A stretch of 64,000 bases of DNA from NCBI RefSeq assembly GCF_008935055.1, contig NZ_CP043028.1, positions 509,501 through 573,500 on the forward strand. Reading direction: 5' to 3'. The position numbers and the translations under genes are program-made. The stretch comes from Pseudobutyrivibrio xylanivorans. GTDB taxonomy: Bacteria > Bacillota > Clostridia > Lachnospirales > Lachnospiraceae. Each line of letters starts with the position of its first letter. The first letter of the stretch is position 1. Positions 1,521 to 56,313 of the stretch are shown here, piece after piece. A model generated the notes under the pieces. The model saw only the letters and a program-made list of their open reading frames with translations. It was not told where the DNA came from and searched no databases.

Positions 1521-1531
1521 CTTTTCACCAG

Positions 1532-1604
1532 AGCGCGAGACGGGACTCGAACCCGCGACCTCCACCTTGGCAAGGTGGCGCTCCACCAACTGAGCCACTC
1601 GCGC
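1532..1604 (-). tRNA. tRNA-Gly (anticodon GCC), copy 1
   Basis: The 73 bases fold as a cloverleaf: acceptor GCGCGAG/CTCGCGC with discriminator U, D-loop with AGTTGG, anticodon stem CACCTTGCCAAGGTG with GCC, and TTCGAGTC T-loop. CCA is not encoded. The copy at 4391-4463 is identical in all 73 bases but lies on the opposite strand. Its 3' end faces the integrase remnant. Confidence 0.97.
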
Positions 1605-4390: not shown

Positions 4391-4463
4391 GCGCGAGTGG
4401 CTCAGTTGGTGGAGCGCCACCTTGCCAAGGTGGAGGTCGCGGGTTCGAGTCCCGTCTCGCGCT
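4391..4463 (+). tRNA. tRNA-Gly (anticodon GCC), copy 2
   Basis: The sequence is identical over 73 bases to the copy at 1532-1604 but on the plus strand, so the two 3' ends point outward from the segment between them. CCA is not encoded. A terminator follows after 10 bases. Confidence 0.97.
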
Positions 4464-4473
4464 CTTTGTATTT

Positions 4474-30325: not shown

Positions 30326-30349
30326 TAACGTACACTAAAATAATTTGCA

Positions 30350-30462
30350 CATCTTCTTCCATCCAGACTATACTGTCGGCTTCGGAATCACACCGAATCA
30401 TGCCTTGCGGCTCGTGGGCTATACCACCGGTAGGGAATCACACCCTGCCCTGAAGATTTCCT
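30350..30462 (-). promoter_or_regulatory. FMN riboswitch (RFN element)
   Basis: On the minus strand the conserved RFN parts appear in order: ATCTTC closing stem, GGGCAGGGTG, ATTCCCTACCGG, the GCCCACGAGC arm, CGGTGTGATTCCG, GCCGACAGT and AGTCTGGATG. It controls ribU. Confidence 0.95.
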
Positions 30463-50148: not shown

Positions 50149-50167
50149 CATGAATTTACGTATATAA

Positions 50168-50256
50168 ACACGGCATCCCTACGTTGGCATTATCCAAATC
50201 AGGTTCTCGGTCGAAGGTCACACCTTCCTCTCAGCCTGTTTACAAGCTCCCGGCTC
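50168..50256 (-). promoter_or_regulatory. TPP riboswitch (THI element)
   Basis: On the minus strand the conserved parts occur in order: GGGAGC, CAGGCTGAGAGG, ACCCTT-like GACCTTCGACC, GAACCTGATTTGGATAATGCC and CGTAGGGA. It controls the thiW-thiM-thiE-thiD-thiC operon. Confidence 0.95.
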
Positions 50257-50316
50257 TATTTAGTTTTTAGTTACTAGTAGAGTATATCGTATTTACGAAT
50301 TAATGCAAGAGGAAAT

Positions 50317-50511: not shown

Positions 50512-51255
50512 TTAATTATTTAATTTTGATACATCTATAGCTACTAAAACACGAGCTGGCCCCAAATATGTATTATCTTCTATACTACCTGTTCCAGTTA
50601 CATCTATTGGACCAAGTGTTCTAGAACGCTTTAGTTCTTCCCCAACCTTCATATCCCTCATATTTTCCAAGAATTTTTCCAAACTATTTGTATATGAACA
50701 ATAATCATATGTATATGGACTACTTGAAAGCAGTATTGAAATGCCAGTCGGCTGTAACAATCGTGTACGATATTTTGATGATTTGCATCCTATTATCTTT
50801 TTGAAACTTTCACAATTGCCAAAGATTAACTCATCTTTATTAATAACCGTAAACATTGCATTTGCTTTATTTAGACTTTTGGTACCGTTATAAACACAAT
50901 CAGAATCAAATCCTGTGCAGCTGTATAAATCATCTTGTGAAATCGGAATATTAAACTTATTACCCTTTTTATCTTTTACTTTAAACTGCAAAAACACACG
51001 TCTAAAGGTATCAGGATAATTAGCATCATCCTTCATCCTTATTTCTATATCACCTAACTCACACTTTCCACTTGTACCAGAAATTGTATTGTTGTAATTA
51101 ACAATACTTCTTAATCCATGTATTAAAGAAAAACCCGTAGTATCTTTCATATTTACAATAAAAGCATCCTCAAGTTTTGTAAATATTTCCTCTTCATAAT
51201 AATATTGTCCTGTACCAACTAAAGCTTTGTAAGTCTCAACAATTTTATTAATCAT
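50512..51255 (-). CDS. Unknown partner of the RyR-domain protein, 247 aa
   Basis: I do not recognise the family. The ATG overlaps the stop of the RyR gene in an ATGA, so the two are translated in coupled manner and probably act together. The product is soluble, mixed beta/alpha, with a strand-rich middle (GDIEIRMKDDANYPDTFRRV, VFLQFKVKDKK) and a helical C-terminal third. A conserved-looking ISILLSSSPYTYDYCSYT segment may be functional. It lacks known enzymatic motifs. Higher AT content and accessory context suggest horizontal transfer. Confidence 0.6.
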   Translation of the reverse strand: MINKIVETYKALVGTGQYYYEEEIFTKLEDAFIVNMKDTTGFSLIHGLRSIVNYNNTISGTSGKCELGDIEIRMKDDANYPDTFRRVFLQFKVKDKKGNKFNIPISQDDLYSCTGFDSDCVYNGTKSLNKANAMFTVINKDELIFGNCESFKKIIGCKSSKYRTRLLQPTGISILLSSSPYTYDYCSYTNSLEKFLENMRDMKVGEELKRSRTLGPIDVTGTGSIEDNTYLGPARVLVAIDVSKLNN

Positions 51256-53120
51256 ATACTCTTCAAAACCTCCACTATTTTTTCCGTCAGCACTATTCCA
51301 TCCTTATCCTGTTCGCTTTTAGACAATTCGCTGAATGGTACTAGTGAATTATGCACTGTTGCCATTTCACGGGTCTTTTTATCAAGAAAACTATCCGAAC
51401 TTTTTTGATAACCCAGAGTTCGCATATACATATTCCATCTCATATGCTCATACATTTTCCATGTGTAATCATCTTTCAGAATATCGTATTTAAATTCAGC
51501 TTCATCACTGATTGGATATATACCAATATCTATAAGCTCTACTTTGTACTTAAGACTCAATGTGCGAGCATACACCGAATGGCGATTAAACTCATTATTA
51601 CAGTATTCTTCCCAGGATTTTGGATTATCTTTATTCTGCTGTCTGATTGCATGAATTGCCATTGATGCCTTTTCCAATTCTGACATCGTAATGAACTCAT
51701 AATTGAAGGTCTCATCTATTCCACCAACTAATTCATACTTTCTAACTAAATCCTCGTTCCAGCTTTTGCTAATCTCCTTATGAGCCATATTGACTTGAAT
51801 TATACAATTGTCATCTGCAAAGCCTTTTTGCACTCTATGAGCTTTTAATCGCTTAGCTAGATTAACATTTAGCAAATCCGCTCCTGCATTAATAAAAACA
51901 AAAGAAAGCCCATCCTTATTCTCCAAACACTGTTCATATTCAAGTGTTTCAAAATCCACATCAGAATGGTATTGAATTCTGTAAAAAGCATCCCCCTCTA
52001 CATCACAAAAATCATAAATCTCTGGCATTAGTTGCTTCAACTTGTCTCTTCCATTACCAGCATCGATAACAGTTAATTTCAAAATATACCCAGGCATCTG
52101 AGCCAATGATAATATTGCCTTAATCATTTCTAGGTTTCTTATATTCATTCCACCTATAATCAAAACATTTATCTTTCGTTCACCATTATCCTCAATAGCT
52201 GCTTCAAAAATTGATTTTTTCAACAAATTGTTCAGCGCAAAGTTTTCCTCAGCTCTAACAAAATTAATAATTGTCTTTGATGGCAATTTATTCTTCTTAG
52301 CATACTCATTATACATTCCCCATGGAGTATCTATTAGTTCCACATAGCACTTAATGACTACATCTTCATTATTTTTTGAAAATGTACTAATCTCCTCAAG
52401 TTTCTTTAGATTGTTTTCTTCGTTCTCTTCGAAAAGAAATATTTCTAGTCCTTTTGCGTGCCCTAGCTTATCTAAAACAACAGCTATATCTGAATTTAAA
52501 TATATGCCACCAACAGAAGCTATTTTTTCTCTTCCTGCTCCGCTAACTTCAGATTGGCTACATGCAAAAATAATATTATTTTTCTTAATATCTACTTTTC
52601 CAGAAATACTTTTAGCTAATGCAATTGTCTTATCATTGCATTCAGATAATAAATACGAATATTTTCTTCTATTGAGCGATAGTCTCAATCTCTGCCACGG
52701 TCCATCCAAAAATTTAACAATGAATCCACCAACAAATATTATTAAAACTATATTAGCCAAAACTCGTATGATTCCATATACACTGGAAAAATTAGGATGT
52801 AATCCAAAAACCACTTTTTCATATCCATTTCCAGCATAGATATTGAAGCTCTTAAGTAATGCTGTAGAGATTCCCTCTATTATCCTTAGCATAACATTAG
52901 TTCCAGTTGAATCATTAAATATTTCCTCTGGAATATACATAATCCAGCATGCCACAAATTCAAAAAAGGCGGCACTTACATAATGTATGTCACTCTTATT
53001 TTCCTTTGTTAACCAATAAATTACCCCATAAAATGCAAAGGCTAGTCCCAATATCATTGTAATCAGCCAAATTACTTCCTCTGAATTAAACTGAGTAAAT
53101 GCCCCCAAAATATTAATCAT
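51252..53120 (-). CDS. Three-TM protein with TrkA/RCK-like Rossmann domains and C-terminal RyR domain
   Basis: I chose the ATG at 53120 over a TTG 12 bases upstream. The 622 residues start with three hydrophobic helices (about 15-36, 46-64, 117-138), like an ion channel or sensor anchor. Next comes a TrkA-N-like region (about 155-240) and a second Rossmann-like region (about 320-450, from KINVLIIGGMNI). The C-terminus (about 545-622) matches the RyR domain: EHMRWNMYMRTLGYQ and VHNSLVPFSELSKSEQDKDG. RyR domains in prokaryotes are proposed to bind nucleotide-derived ligands in conflict systems. A ligand-gated membrane effector is a reasonable inference. Confidence 0.75.
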   Translation of the reverse strand: MINILGAFTQFNSEEVIWLITMILGLAFAFYGVIYWLTKENKSDIHYVSAAFFEFVACWIMYIPEEIFNDSTGTNVMLRIIEGISTALLKSFNIYAGNGYEKVVFGLHPNFSSVYGIIRVLANIVLIIFVGGFIVKFLDGPWQRLRLSLNRRKYSYLLSECNDKTIALAKSISGKVDIKKNNIIFACSQSEVSGAGREKIASVGGIYLNSDIAVVLDKLGHAKGLEIFLFEENEENNLKKLEEISTFSKNNEDVVIKCYVELIDTPWGMYNEYAKKNKLPSKTIINFVRAEENFALNNLLKKSIFEAAIEDNGERKINVLIIGGMNIRNLEMIKAILSLAQMPGYILKLTVIDAGNGRDKLKQLMPEIYDFCDVEGDAFYRIQYHSDVDFETLEYEQCLENKDGLSFVFINAGADLLNVNLAKRLKAHRVQKGFADDNCIIQVNMAHKEISKSWNEDLVRKYELVGGIDETFNYEFITMSELEKASMAIHAIRQQNKDNPKSWEEYCNNEFNRHSVYARTLSLKYKVELIDIGIYPISDEAEFKYDILKDDYTWKMYEHMRWNMYMRTLGYQKSSDSFLDKKTREMATVHNSLVPFSELSKSEQDKDGIVLTEKIVEVLKSI

Positions 53121-53197
53121 ACTTTTCACCAATCTCTTGATTTTTTATTCTACTAAAAATATACTCCTTATATCATATATGCTGCGAGGATAGAAGA

Positions 53198-53875
53198 ATG
53201 TTATTACCTGAACTTATCACTGAACGAACGAATTATGCTCATGTTATTGCAATTATTAATAATAGTTATGAGACATTATATGATGAAGAGGATTTCTTTA
53301 TTATCCATTCATTAGTAAATGATAATTATTGTGTCGAGATGCGTGATAATTCTAAGCTAGATAAAGTTGCACACATTTTGGAAACCTTGCGTCCCGACCT
53401 TTTACTCACTACAAGTCAGGCAATCTTCAACAGTTTAAAGAATGAATATAGTAACGCATATATGTGCAAGCAATTCACATATCCTGATAATTTCGGCTTT
53501 AATCCTAACGTTAGACTATTAAACAAAGCAGATTTACCTTATGTAATTGATACCTACGGTGAATCCAATTACATAACCCAATTATTCGATAGAAACCGTA
53601 TTTTAGGTTACTATCTTGATAACGCTCTTATTGGATATGTTGTCCATCACATTGACGATACTGTCGGCGCTCTATTTATAACACCAGAATACCGAAGAAA
53701 TAAATACGGTGCAGAGTTACTTAAATCAGCAGTGAATTATTTTGGTAGTAACTTAGTATATTCTCATGTAGTATCAACAAACACCGCCTCCCTAAAATTA
53801 CACCAATCAATTGGTGCCAAAACGGCTGATACTAACATTTATTGGATGCACAACATCGGATATTCATTCAATTAA
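53198..53875 (+). CDS. GNAT family acetyltransferase
   Basis: The 225-residue protein has an N-terminal half of unknown fold and a C-terminal GNAT domain with ALFITPEYRRNKYGAELLKSAV as the acetyl-CoA-binding loop (R-x-x-x-G-x-x-L) and NTASLKLHQSIGAKT. The substrate is unknown. It is the only plus-strand gene in the island, divergent from the RyR gene (77-base gap) and overlapping the stop codon of the TIR gene by four bases. Confidence 0.85.
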   Translation: MLLPELITERTNYAHVIAIINNSYETLYDEEDFFIIHSLVNDNYCVEMRDNSKLDKVAHILETLRPDLLLTTSQAIFNSLKNEYSNAYMCKQFTYPDNFGFNPNVRLLNKADLPYVIDTYGESNYITQLFDRNRILGYYLDNALIGYVVHHIDDTVGALFITPEYRRNKYGAELLKSAVNYFGSNLVYSHVVSTNTASLKLHQSIGAKTADTNIYWMHNIGYSFN

Positions 53876-55281
53876 AATAATTCATCATCTGGTTCAAACA
53901 CACCGTAACCAGCAACATAACCAGCCCTAAAGTAGAAATCAGGAGAACAAAATAAGCTTTCAACATCATCATAATTATTTAACAGCCAGCTATAGGCCTC
54001 GACATATTTATCATACTTAGAATTTGCTCTATTTTTTTCATTATCCTCAGACAATGCTTTCATTTCAGGCAACAGATAAGAAAAATAATTATGACACATA
54101 GCCAACTGAAAGGCTGTTTTATGATTTGCAGTTGATAGTATTTCATCCGAAATATAAACCTTATCAGCTCCTGCTCTTATTAGATAGGTATAAACTTTCT
54201 TTCCTAAATGTCTATATCCCGCACCATCGTCCAATTCCAGAATTTCCTTTAGCTTTGGTATCAGCTTTGCTTCATCAGGATACCCATCAATGTAATCATC
54301 ATCCAATTCTCTAATATAAATAATTCCCCCATCAGGATTTAAAAGCTTCGCCAACTCCCTAAGAGTTTTCTCTGGTTCAGGCATATCCTTCAGAATCAAT
54401 GTCAAATCAATTATATCAAAACCTTCAATCTGATTGTCAGACATAAGTTTCTTTACTGCATCAATATAATTTTCTGTTGCGAACTCATCTGCTATAAAAT
54501 GACCCTTTTGAAAGATTCTGTCAGCCTCATCCAATAGACCTCTGTAAGTAACACCATAGATTTCTCCTGGATTTATTCGTTTTCCTAGGCTTAATGCTCT
54601 TTTAGGATTAAGTGCATACTTTTTTGCATAAGTTTCTATATCATAGGCCTTGTAAACCAGTAGATTTAAATCATTCCTATCCTTAAAAATACTCTCCTGC
54701 GTTATTGCTCTTTCCAATATATTCCAATCAATCCCGCGACACACAGTGTGATCTGTCTTTATCCAAAGAAAATCTGCCTCATCCATCCCATGCTCTGAAT
54801 AGTATGAATTATTCTTTGTCGTTTTTCTCTTTTTGAAAGGAAGTCCATCCTCACCCTTCATCTGCCTAATAATTTTGTCTATGAGAACTTCTTCATCTGA
54901 AATAGACATAGTATCCCACTTATGTCTATTGTATGTCTCAAACTTCTTTATGTAATCATCTTCATCATCCCAGTTTGTATCATCTCTTAATTGATACCCC
55001 GCCTTATAGATGAGAATAAAATTTTTGCTTTGTTCAACAGCATATTCTATTTCTTCCCTGACACGATCATGGTCAGATTTTTTTGTGAAATATCCTTTAG
55101 TCAAAATCATAATAAAATTGGGCGCTTTACTAATCTCTTCTTTAATTCGAATAGTAAAGTCCTCATTTCCAATTTTATCTTTGTCAAAAAACACATCCAA
55201 CCCCTTTGAGCAGAGATGTGTTCGTATATTACTTGCTAATTCAGACCCCGTATCTCTTCTATAACTAATAAATGCATCCAT
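53872..55281 (-). CDS. TIR domain fused to a methyltransferase-like domain
   Basis: The 469 residues begin with a TIR domain (1 to about 130): MDAFISYRRD, GLDVFFDKDKIG, PNFIMILTKGYF, and catalytic-type Glu77 in VREEIEYA, the residue used for NAD cleavage by active TIR enzymes. After a linker with KKRKTTKNN comes a Rossmann-like domain (about 190-400) that resembles class I SAM methyltransferases: GEIYGVTYRGLLDEADRIF, GFDIIDLTLILKDMPEPEKTLRELAKLLNPDGGIIYIREL. The glycine-rich SAM loop is replaced by ALSLGKRIN, so it may be a binding rather than a catalytic domain. The tail is helical. TIR proteins with sensor domains act in anti-phage defence by NAD depletion or signalling. Confidence 0.8.
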   Translation of the reverse strand: MDAFISYRRDTGSELASNIRTHLCSKGLDVFFDKDKIGNEDFTIRIKEEISKAPNFIMILTKGYFTKKSDHDRVREEIEYAVEQSKNFILIYKAGYQLRDDTNWDDEDDYIKKFETYNRHKWDTMSISDEEVLIDKIIRQMKGEDGLPFKKRKTTKNNSYYSEHGMDEADFLWIKTDHTVCRGIDWNILERAITQESIFKDRNDLNLLVYKAYDIETYAKKYALNPKRALSLGKRINPGEIYGVTYRGLLDEADRIFQKGHFIADEFATENYIDAVKKLMSDNQIEGFDIIDLTLILKDMPEPEKTLRELAKLLNPDGGIIYIRELDDDYIDGYPDEAKLIPKLKEILELDDGAGYRHLGKKVYTYLIRAGADKVYISDEILSTANHKTAFQLAMCHNYFSYLLPEMKALSEDNEKNRANSKYDKYVEAYSWLLNNYDDVESLFCSPDFYFRAGYVAGYGVFEPDDELF

Positions 55282-55404: not shown

Positions 55405-56313
55405 CTAAACTTCAATCTGCATCTTTTCGTGAAAACTATTTGCAATTTCAAATATATTAGTAACTGTCACAATACCCGCTTCCACCACATAACAAACCAC
55501 GTAAGGATCGCTAAGCCACCCAAGATGTCTTATCTTTACATCCATACAATGAATACCTTCGGAATGTTCTGGTTCAACTGATAATATTGGATATATATCT
55601 GATTCAACTTCCAATGCAAGGATTTTATCAGCAATAACACAATACCTTTCTTCATCTATTTCAGCAAACCTTTGTCCATAAATTGGTAAATGGTATACAT
55701 AACAATCCATATCCTCCAACGCAATATCTGTTATTCGAACAGTATTCGTTTCAATCAACTCTTTAGATCTATATTTTGTAAATCTTTCGTTATCACGATA
55801 ATTGCCAAAAGCTTCCACCGCTAGCTTTGTATTTCCATTTTTGAATTCCTCGTAGCTGGCATGTATCCGTGCGTGTATTTCATCTTTTGTGAGATTACTT
55901 GCACTACATTTATCAGACTTTTTATAGTCCATAAAATCGATATCACTAAAATCCACATCATAATAGCCTGAAATCTCTTTATATTCATCATCAATACTAA
56001 TTCCATGTGGATACACTCCATACAAGCATCCAAGGCCAAGTATTACACTTATATAATAGTCATGGTCACATTTCTGTTTATATATAACTTCCCTAAACCG
56101 ATTTATAGCAACCTTGAATGATTCGCCCATAGTGCAATGTTCCTCAAAGTCACCCATTCCATCAGCCCAATCCATAGCACTTGCAAAACCAACAACTCTA
56201 ACCATTGTGTCCTTAGATAACGTATCCCAACCTTTGAGTCCTCCTGCTTTTCGCAGCAACTCTCCTTTTTGTTTCTTTGCTTCCTCATATATCTCGTCTG
56301 ATTCTTTAGACAT
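55405..56313 (-). CDS. Hypothetical protein, 302 aa, in the TIR/RyR island
   Basis: I do not recognise the family. The start has GGAGGG. The first 40 residues are charged and helical (SDEIYEEAKKQKGELLRKAGG); the middle is rich in acidic and aromatic residues; the C-terminal 90 residues (about 210-300) are beta-rich. No membrane helix. Several Cys/His residues are present without a zinc motif. It lies 123 bases upstream of the TIR gene on the same strand, so the two may be one transcription unit. Confidence 0.55.
   Translation of the reverse strand: MSKESDEIYEEAKKQKGELLRKAGGLKGWDTLSKDTMVRVVGFASAMDWADGMGDFEEHCTMGESFKVAINRFREVIYKQKCDHDYYISVILGLGCLYGVYPHGISIDDEYKEISGYYDVDFSDIDFMDYKKSDKCSASNLTKDEIHARIHASYEEFKNGNTKLAVEAFGNYRDNERFTKYRSKELIETNTVRITDIALEDMDCYVYHLPIYGQRFAEIDEERYCVIADKILALEVESDIYPILSVEPEHSEGIHCMDVKIRHLGWLSDPYVVCYVVEAGIVTVTNIFEIANSFHEKMQIEV

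Follow-up and report, generated by a model that had tools for sequence, protein, structure and literature searches.

Why is a bacterial membrane protein that resembles a gated ion channel and ends in a RyR-type region encoded close to a TIR gene? This question is raised by a locus of the gut bacterium Pseudobutyrivibrio xylanivorans, located in a stretch of 64,000 nucleotides (NZ_CP043028.1, positions 509,501 to 573,500; hereafter the window). Gene A encodes the membrane protein, gene B overlaps its end, and the TIR gene lies 0.75 kilobases (kb) from the start of A, with a gene for a GNAT acetyltransferase on the opposite strand in between (Table 1). On the basis of the analysis described here, we consider it probable that A serves as ion-channel effector in a Thoeris-like module, where an ADP-ribose signal made by the TIR protein would gate an RCK channel via the RyR domain and abort the infection.

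Architecture and family of protein A

Gene A represents a real gene family: among 7996 candidates scored, 82 other proteins matched it at E <= 0.001. The structure model of A (predicted local distance difference test (pLDDT) 89.8) contains a membrane pore-like part, two RCK/TrkA domains and the C-terminal RyR region. The initial annotation had proposed three membrane helices and two Rossmann-like regions, and the model indeed has, at the N-terminus, three long helices and one shorter helix, followed by two Rossmann-type domains. Its fold matches were CASTOR/DMI1, GsuK, Slo gating rings, MthK and TrkA/KtrA, the structure alignments with GsuK and MthK beginning at residues 39-48 of A. In the model, two RCK domains follow a membrane pore module, which is the arrangement of RCK-regulated channels. 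No match to A was found among the PADLOC models or in viral contigs, and none over cut-off in NCBIfam. The search of the viral structure library with the model gave no meaningful match (the single row at E <= 0.001 was a polyprotein of a plant virus, prob 0.57). In two loci of the family the gene had to be treated separately: in L004 an antisense open reading frame (ORF) was picked in place of A and the coordinates were taken from the family search matches, and in L026 the gene is broken into two ORFs, which were not joined.

A group of sister proteins links A to typical potassium channels. Five distinct RyR proteins of 519-535 amino acids contain TVGYGD near the N-terminus (L076, L077, L090, L091 and L092; the L045 protein is the same gene as that in L092 and was counted once). 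PF07885 matched those of L077, L090 and L091 at E 1.7e-12, 1.2e-12 and 1.6e-14, respectively. With the curated cut-off of the Pfam RyR family (PF02026) at 27.4 bits, the RyR match was over it in L090 (E 1.3e-6, 29 bits), just below it in L091 (E 1e-5, 26.1 bits) and below it in L077 (E 9e-5, 23 bits). The profile of three sister channels matched both KcsA-type channels and animal ryanodine receptors, and the A profile aligned with the sister-channel profile at E 2.4e-20 over 450 columns, with AGNGYEK of A falling on TTVGYGD. In L076, L090 and L092 a second protein is encoded beside the channel gene, which by eye has a membrane-Rossmann-RyR layout; the A profile matched such a second protein at E 9e-18 over 524 columns. 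Because the A profile aligns with RyR proteins bearing TVGYG, A is, as judged from these alignments, a member of a family of RyR-bearing channel-like proteins, but is itself without the potassium signature. The ion passing through A would not necessarily be potassium, because its filter place reads AGNGYEK and not TTVGYGD.

Some sister channels are also encoded close to TIR genes. In L077 (4981-8353) 7 bases separate a TIR gene from the start of the channel gene behind it, and in L076 (2543-14918) the channel gene follows two TIR genes, at 2.9 kb from the second, in one same-strand run that also includes the second RyR protein; loci L069-L082 were chosen for the TIR_2 and RyR matches there, and this adjacency is an illustration rather than a count.

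The RyR region and its putative ligand

The initial annotation placed a RyR domain at the C-terminus of A, and this assignment held: although A itself has no RyR call in Pfam, a profile built from A together with 35 relatives matched RyR domains of solved structure (6uhi; E 3.2e-6 as the sum of two repeats; independent E value of the best single stretch 0.014). Four of the 36 family members weakly matched Pfam RyR themselves (best E 0.0048). Four residues, H559, W562, H590 and D607, are invariant in all 36 rows of the alignment (A and 35 relatives). The spacings of this His, Trp, His, Asp set (3 and 17) are equal to those of the phage protein RyDEP, a correspondence by spacing and motif, and the family profile alignment places H590 and D607 on H and D of solved RyR domains. 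According to the RyDEP sections of PMC13232231, H75 and D117 of RyDEP touch the terminal ribose of the signal, W78 braces the adenine and H100 coordinates the phosphates. The same sections report that six of eight phage RyDEP homologues bind 2'/3'cADPR (cADPR, cyclic ADP-ribose). The topic of that study is phage evasion, and its RyDEP sections contain no host RyR effector.

The resemblance to RyDEP also raises the possibility that the RyR domain of A destroys the signal, as an off-switch like phage RyDEP, and is not a gating receptor, since the invariant H559 and D607 correspond by spacing to the catalytic pair H75/D117. We regard this as improbable. The other RyDEP homologues tested did not cleave the signal despite high conservation, whereas six of the eight bound signals (PMC13232231, RyDEP sections), and the fusion of RyR to a gating ring speaks for a receptor.

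A channel gated through its RyR region would work as follows. Upon infection, the TIR protein would convert NAD+ to an ADP-ribose-type signal, which the C-terminal RyR domain of A would bind; the double RCK ring would pass this binding on to the membrane pore, the pore would open, and ion flux through A would stop or kill the infected cell. The fold of A, its conserved RyR residues, its homology with potassium-filter RyR channels and the TIR linkage of its family are computational results; the ligand, the gating, the ion, the purpose of phage defence and the role of the TIR protein of the window as partner are what we infer here. The fold and the conserved ligand residues support the earlier suggestion that A is a membrane effector gated by a ligand, with RyR as the sensor.

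Genetic linkage between A and TIR genes

The initial annotation noted a TIR gene about 0.8 kb from A, which agrees with the distance given above, and asked whether the two co-occur elsewhere. We examined 30 A-bearing genomes, namely 29 A loci read and the window. TIR_2 matches over cut-off were counted, with 129 of 133 rows used (four below cut-off were dropped), and for the 30 places of A weaker second matches were dropped and split matches joined. A TIR_2 match was present within 3 kb of A in 13 genomes (0.37 expected) and within 8 kb in 15 (0.82 expected), where the expected counts suppose a random position of A in each genome, given the size stated for it and its own number of TIR matches, and ignore contig breaks and island clustering. 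For ten of the 13 linked TIR genes the run to A is unbroken and on the same strand (L002, L004, L005, L011, L014, L016, L023, L026, L027 and L030); the TIR genes in L013 and L022 face A, and in the window the GNAT gene intervenes.

Similar results were obtained from an independent draw of 397 family genomes, 27 of which had a match to the A profile, many to the RyR part only. At the further A-profile sites TIR_2 was found within 3 kb at 8 of 26 (0.17 expected) and within 5 kb at 11 of 26 (0.26 expected). These sites come from 29 of 33 rows, merged after dropping the own genome as well as G170 and G173, which were judged identical to G080 and G065 from equal contig places; some of the matches are without the RyR part, and the TIR rows of G170 and G173 and four rows below cut-off were also dropped. 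As a small control for island clustering, HsdR, a further defence family, was counted in the same 30 genomes: 24 matches (24 rows, one of them below cut-off) occurred in 12 genomes, none of them within 3 kb of TIR_2 and the nearest at 78 kb, while we estimate that about 0.3 would be expected by chance and about 10 if HsdR were linked as strongly as A. The genetic link of the A family to TIR genes is real.

The genome of the window has a single TIR_2 match, which is the TIR gene near A. We aligned 30 TIR proteins, one of which did not align, and examined the glutamate position that we take to be the catalytic place. It is occupied by glutamate in 25 of the 29 aligned domains, including that of the window. 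Among the TIR proteins beside A there are further matches to LRR (over cut-off) and to Sel1 or beta-propeller families (below cut-offs); such extra domains could be sensors. At its C-terminus, the TIR protein of the window matches methyltransferase families below threshold (Methyltransf_31, E 1.8e-4), and this stretch may be a degenerate enzyme that serves as a sensor.

Several observations weigh against A as a TIR-dependent channel effector, besides the missing Pfam RyR call and the fact that the TVGYG potassium filter is not present in A, where AGNGYEK stands at the aligned place. TIR_2 was not found within 3 kb of A in 17 of the 30 genomes or within 8 kb in 15, some contigs terminate in or near A, and the genomes of 7 of the 26 further sites have no TIR_2 match at all. 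Among the five TVGYG-type RyR channels, three (L090, L091 and L092) have no TIR_2 gene nearby. In the window, the GNAT gene on the opposite strand interrupts the run from A to the TIR gene, so that the two do not form a single simple operon. No phmmer match (E <= 1e-3) to the TIR protein of the window was obtained among the neighbors of the 29 other A genes. In addition, four of the 29 TIR domains lack the glutamate, having D (L081), S (the first of L002) or V (the second of L027) or ending earlier (L016).

Some of these observations would fit a channel or transport regulator serving ordinary ion homeostasis, with nucleotides as metabolic signals and a TIR link that arises from shared accessory islands. 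The fold matches of A are K+ channels and TrkA/KtrA, and more than half of the A genes are without a TIR_2 gene within 3 kb. On the other hand, A is sporadic and low in guanine-cytosine (GC) content and is absent from 28 of 29 genomes of the genus, TIR genes often directly adjoin A, and HsdR in the same genomes was never linked, so that we judge a housekeeping role unlikely. The initial annotation had named two findings that would speak against a defence role. One was a match to a plain potassium transporter in conserved core context: A does match gating rings of potassium channels and TrkA in fold, but its genetic surroundings are accessory rather than core. The other was wide occurrence of the pair without TIR or defence genes, which applies, as far as TIR is concerned, to the half of the A-bearing genomes without TIR_2 within 8 kb and not to the other half, where the genes are linked.

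Other RyR proteins near A and TIR genes

RyR domains were also found on other proteins in these neighborhoods. In L017 (7396-9972), the gene directly upstream of an A relative encodes a protein kinase whose C-terminal RyR domain exceeds the Pfam cut-off. Two proteins beside A have sub-threshold matches to the Card1 endonuclease, in L005 (6553-9195; E 1.5e-4), which also has a sub-threshold RyR match, and in L018 (12083-13357; E 1.9e-4). A stand-alone RyR gene (G067:C146:2364-3000; frame of 116 amino acids, PF02026 E 2.5e-37) is followed after 37 bases by a TIR_2 match and is perhaps a host relative of RyDEP. Ten RyR proteins gave no match in PADLOC save the kinase part of L017, and in NCBIfam ten proteins searched gave nothing over cut-off. 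Because the kinase-RyR protein, the L005 and L018 proteins and the G067 gene are all near A or TIR genes, one signal may be read by several RyR proteins. The broader idea, that a bacterial RyR-type domain opens an ion channel upon TIR-made cyclic ADP-ribose, within an immune circuit in which one signal serves interchangeable RyR effectors (channel, kinase and perhaps nuclease), seems to us evenly balanced between being right and wrong.

The variety of these proteins bears on another explanation, in which the TIR protein itself kills by depleting NAD+, with A as a sensor or regulator for it in the membrane. TIR domains are able to deplete NAD+, as described in a part of PMC9503650, and the TIR partners beside A differ in their other domains. 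However, in the vicinity of A or TIR genes RyR recurs on more than one kind of output module (channel, kinase), which is the pattern of a receptor placed on effectors, and a killer TIR with A as its accessory is the least probable of the explanations considered.

A DUF4062-STAND-TPR gene precedes an A relative (G307; L095:1366-5310), and in L095, whose genome is without any TIR_2 match, it may take the place of TIR. In L020 a DUF4062 gene is downstream of A on the other strand. Related genes were also observed upstream of A on the other strand in L009, L013 and L022; by eye they are von Willebrand A (vWA) and phosphatase-like, and in two of the three also kinase-like.

Gene B

The start codon of gene B overlaps the stop of A, and the ATGA described initially was located (Table 1). 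B is a real gene with five relatives. No relative was found in the first search; one was obtained from the family genome search and four more with the profile of the two, and five weaker matches (E 2e-4 to 0.007) were present in the family genome search besides. E66, D69 and [Q/D]90-F-K92 are kept in all six sequences and resemble, by eye only, the PD-(D/E)XK motif, and B is perhaps a nuclease. It had no convincing Pfam match, no PDB match and no match in viral contigs and phage records, and its one-sequence model (pLDDT 31) was unusable.

B as a conserved partner of A was rejected, as none of the 334 neighbor ORFs of the 29 other A loci matched it; these are the loci with readable context, and A relatives known as proteins alone are outside the count. 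The initial proposal of B as the partner of A is therefore not supported. B was not found beside the 29 other A genes read, its relatives were found via searches with B, and the one context that was read (L068) is without A; because of this, B appears to be only a local, genome-specific extra partner. In L068 (4156-10890) the B relative is in a run with an AAA gene and with genes that by eye encode Hsp70-like and Sel1-repeat proteins; this run may be a further conflict system.

It may nevertheless be asked whether A and B form a self-contained two-gene system, a membrane sensor with a nuclease-like partner, with the TIR gene as a chance neighbor in the island. The ATGA coupling, the GNAT gene on the other strand between A and TIR, the conserved residues of B and the sub-threshold Card1-like proteins beside A in L018 and L005 would all agree with such a pair. 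In contrast, no B relative accompanies any of the 29 other A genes read, A is linked to TIR genes in 13 of 30 genomes, and B is without a convincing family, structure match or usable model. We therefore think a two-gene system rather unlikely, although it is the strongest of the explanations that compete with a TIR-gated channel.

Comparison with known systems

The known system closest to the proposed module is Thoeris (ThsA/ThsB), which likewise combines a TIR enzyme with an effector whose domain is of the kind that binds ADP-ribose signals. As in Thoeris, TIR and effector genes are adjacent in a good part of the A relatives, and the linkage across relatives was found both in the 30 genomes and at the further sites. 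The window TIR protein partially matched NCBIfam Thoeris_type3_ThcB4 (29 bits against a cut-off of 220). Unlike in Thoeris, the effector is an RCK channel-like protein with RyR and not a SIR2-SLOG or macro-domain protein, and no SIR2-SLOG, macro-domain or caspase-type match to A was found in Pfam, PADLOC or NCBIfam. The separation of the two genes in the window by 0.75 kb and an opposite-strand gene is a further difference. Thoeris effectors also include a caspase type. We consider a Thoeris-like module with a new type of effector likely.

Phage RyDEP shares the four residues and their spacings with A but comes from a phage and removes the signal, by cleavage or by soaking it up, whereas in A the RyR domain is placed on a channel-like host protein. 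CASTOR/DMI1, GsuK, MthK and Slo1 resemble A in having a membrane pore-like part followed by RCK domains; unlike A, such RCK-gated channels have no added RyR region. Like A, CASTOR is without TVGYG, and its filter AD(S/A)GNHA, as given in a part of PMC6697748, shares (A/S)-G-N by eye with YAGNGY of A. The aspartate of the CASTOR/POLLUX/DMI1 filter was not found in A: this place, which was set by eye, is occupied by Tyr in 30 of the 36 A-family sequences and by Phe in four. Animal ryanodine receptors also carry a RyR (R12) domain on a cation channel. Their channel core and size are entirely different from those of A.

Among the matches listed from open PubMed Central, a scope that leaves outside Burroughs et al. 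2015 (Nucleic Acids Research), which covers nucleotide-centered systems and perhaps RyR, no RyR effector paired with TIR and no RyR-channel effector was found. If the proposed function is true, TIR immunity would gain a class of ion-flux effectors with easily assayed potassium-channel relatives, and the phage RyR proteins that destroy or soak up cADPR signals would acquire a host-side meaning. Cyclic ADP-ribose is implicated in the control of animal ryanodine receptors (PMC13232231, in part), and this debated link would become testable in a small bacterial protein.

Locus layout and composition

Table 1. Features of the A locus (window positions; boundaries marked ~ were set by eye from the model where stated)
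Feature	Position	Strand	Description	Basis
Gene A	51252..53120	-	622 aa (amino acids); ATG at 53120, stop at 51252	ORF
Gene B	50512..51255	-	247 aa	ORF
A stop/B start overlap, ATGA	51252..51255	-	TGA of A and ATG of B	
A, membrane part	52710..53084	-	residues 13-137	model secondary structure; GsuK/MthK alignments
A, membrane helices		-	residues 13-38, 44-70, 76-95 (pore-helix position), 109-137	model secondary structure
A, AGNGYEK	52815..52835	-	residues 96-102	profile-aligned with TTVGYGD filter of sister channels
A, first RCK-like domain	52218..52664	-	residues ~153-301	fold matches; boundaries by eye from model
A, second RCK-like domain	51681..52181	-	residues ~314-480	fold matches; boundaries by eye from model
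A, RyR region	51255..51614	-	residues ~503-622	invariant H559, W562, H590, D607
GNAT acetyltransferase gene between A and TIR	53198..53875	+		ORF, Pfam
TIR gene	53872..55281	-	469 aa	PF13676 E 2.6e-11
302-aa gene, same low-GC block	55405..56313	-	no family match	

An alternative start of A, an upstream TTG at 53132, would give 626 amino acids. The block of five genes has a GC content of 0.31-0.36 and a GC content at third codon positions (GC3) of 0.20-0.29, below those of the seven flanking genes (0.37-0.46 and 0.35-0.42, respectively), which suggests that it was acquired. A was found in one of 29 genomes of the genus and in one of 61 genomes searched overall. In the empty-site comparison, congeners retain thiT or GGDEF genes in other surroundings. 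No clean insertion boundary could be found in this comparison, because the congener G013 retains both flanks, thiT and GGDEF, with other genes between.

A thiamine pyrophosphate (TPP) riboswitch is present at 50159-50263, upstream of the thiamine genes bordering the block, and a flavin mononucleotide (FMN) riboswitch at 30347-30461 of the window. In the own genome, two HsdR N-terminal matches with identical scores (C1:15563 and C1:105766) are 90 kb apart, perhaps a duplicated restriction locus. Finally, two tRNA-Gly(gcc) genes of the window (1531-1604 and 4391-4464) are in opposite orientation about 2.8 kb apart, with equal Rfam scores.
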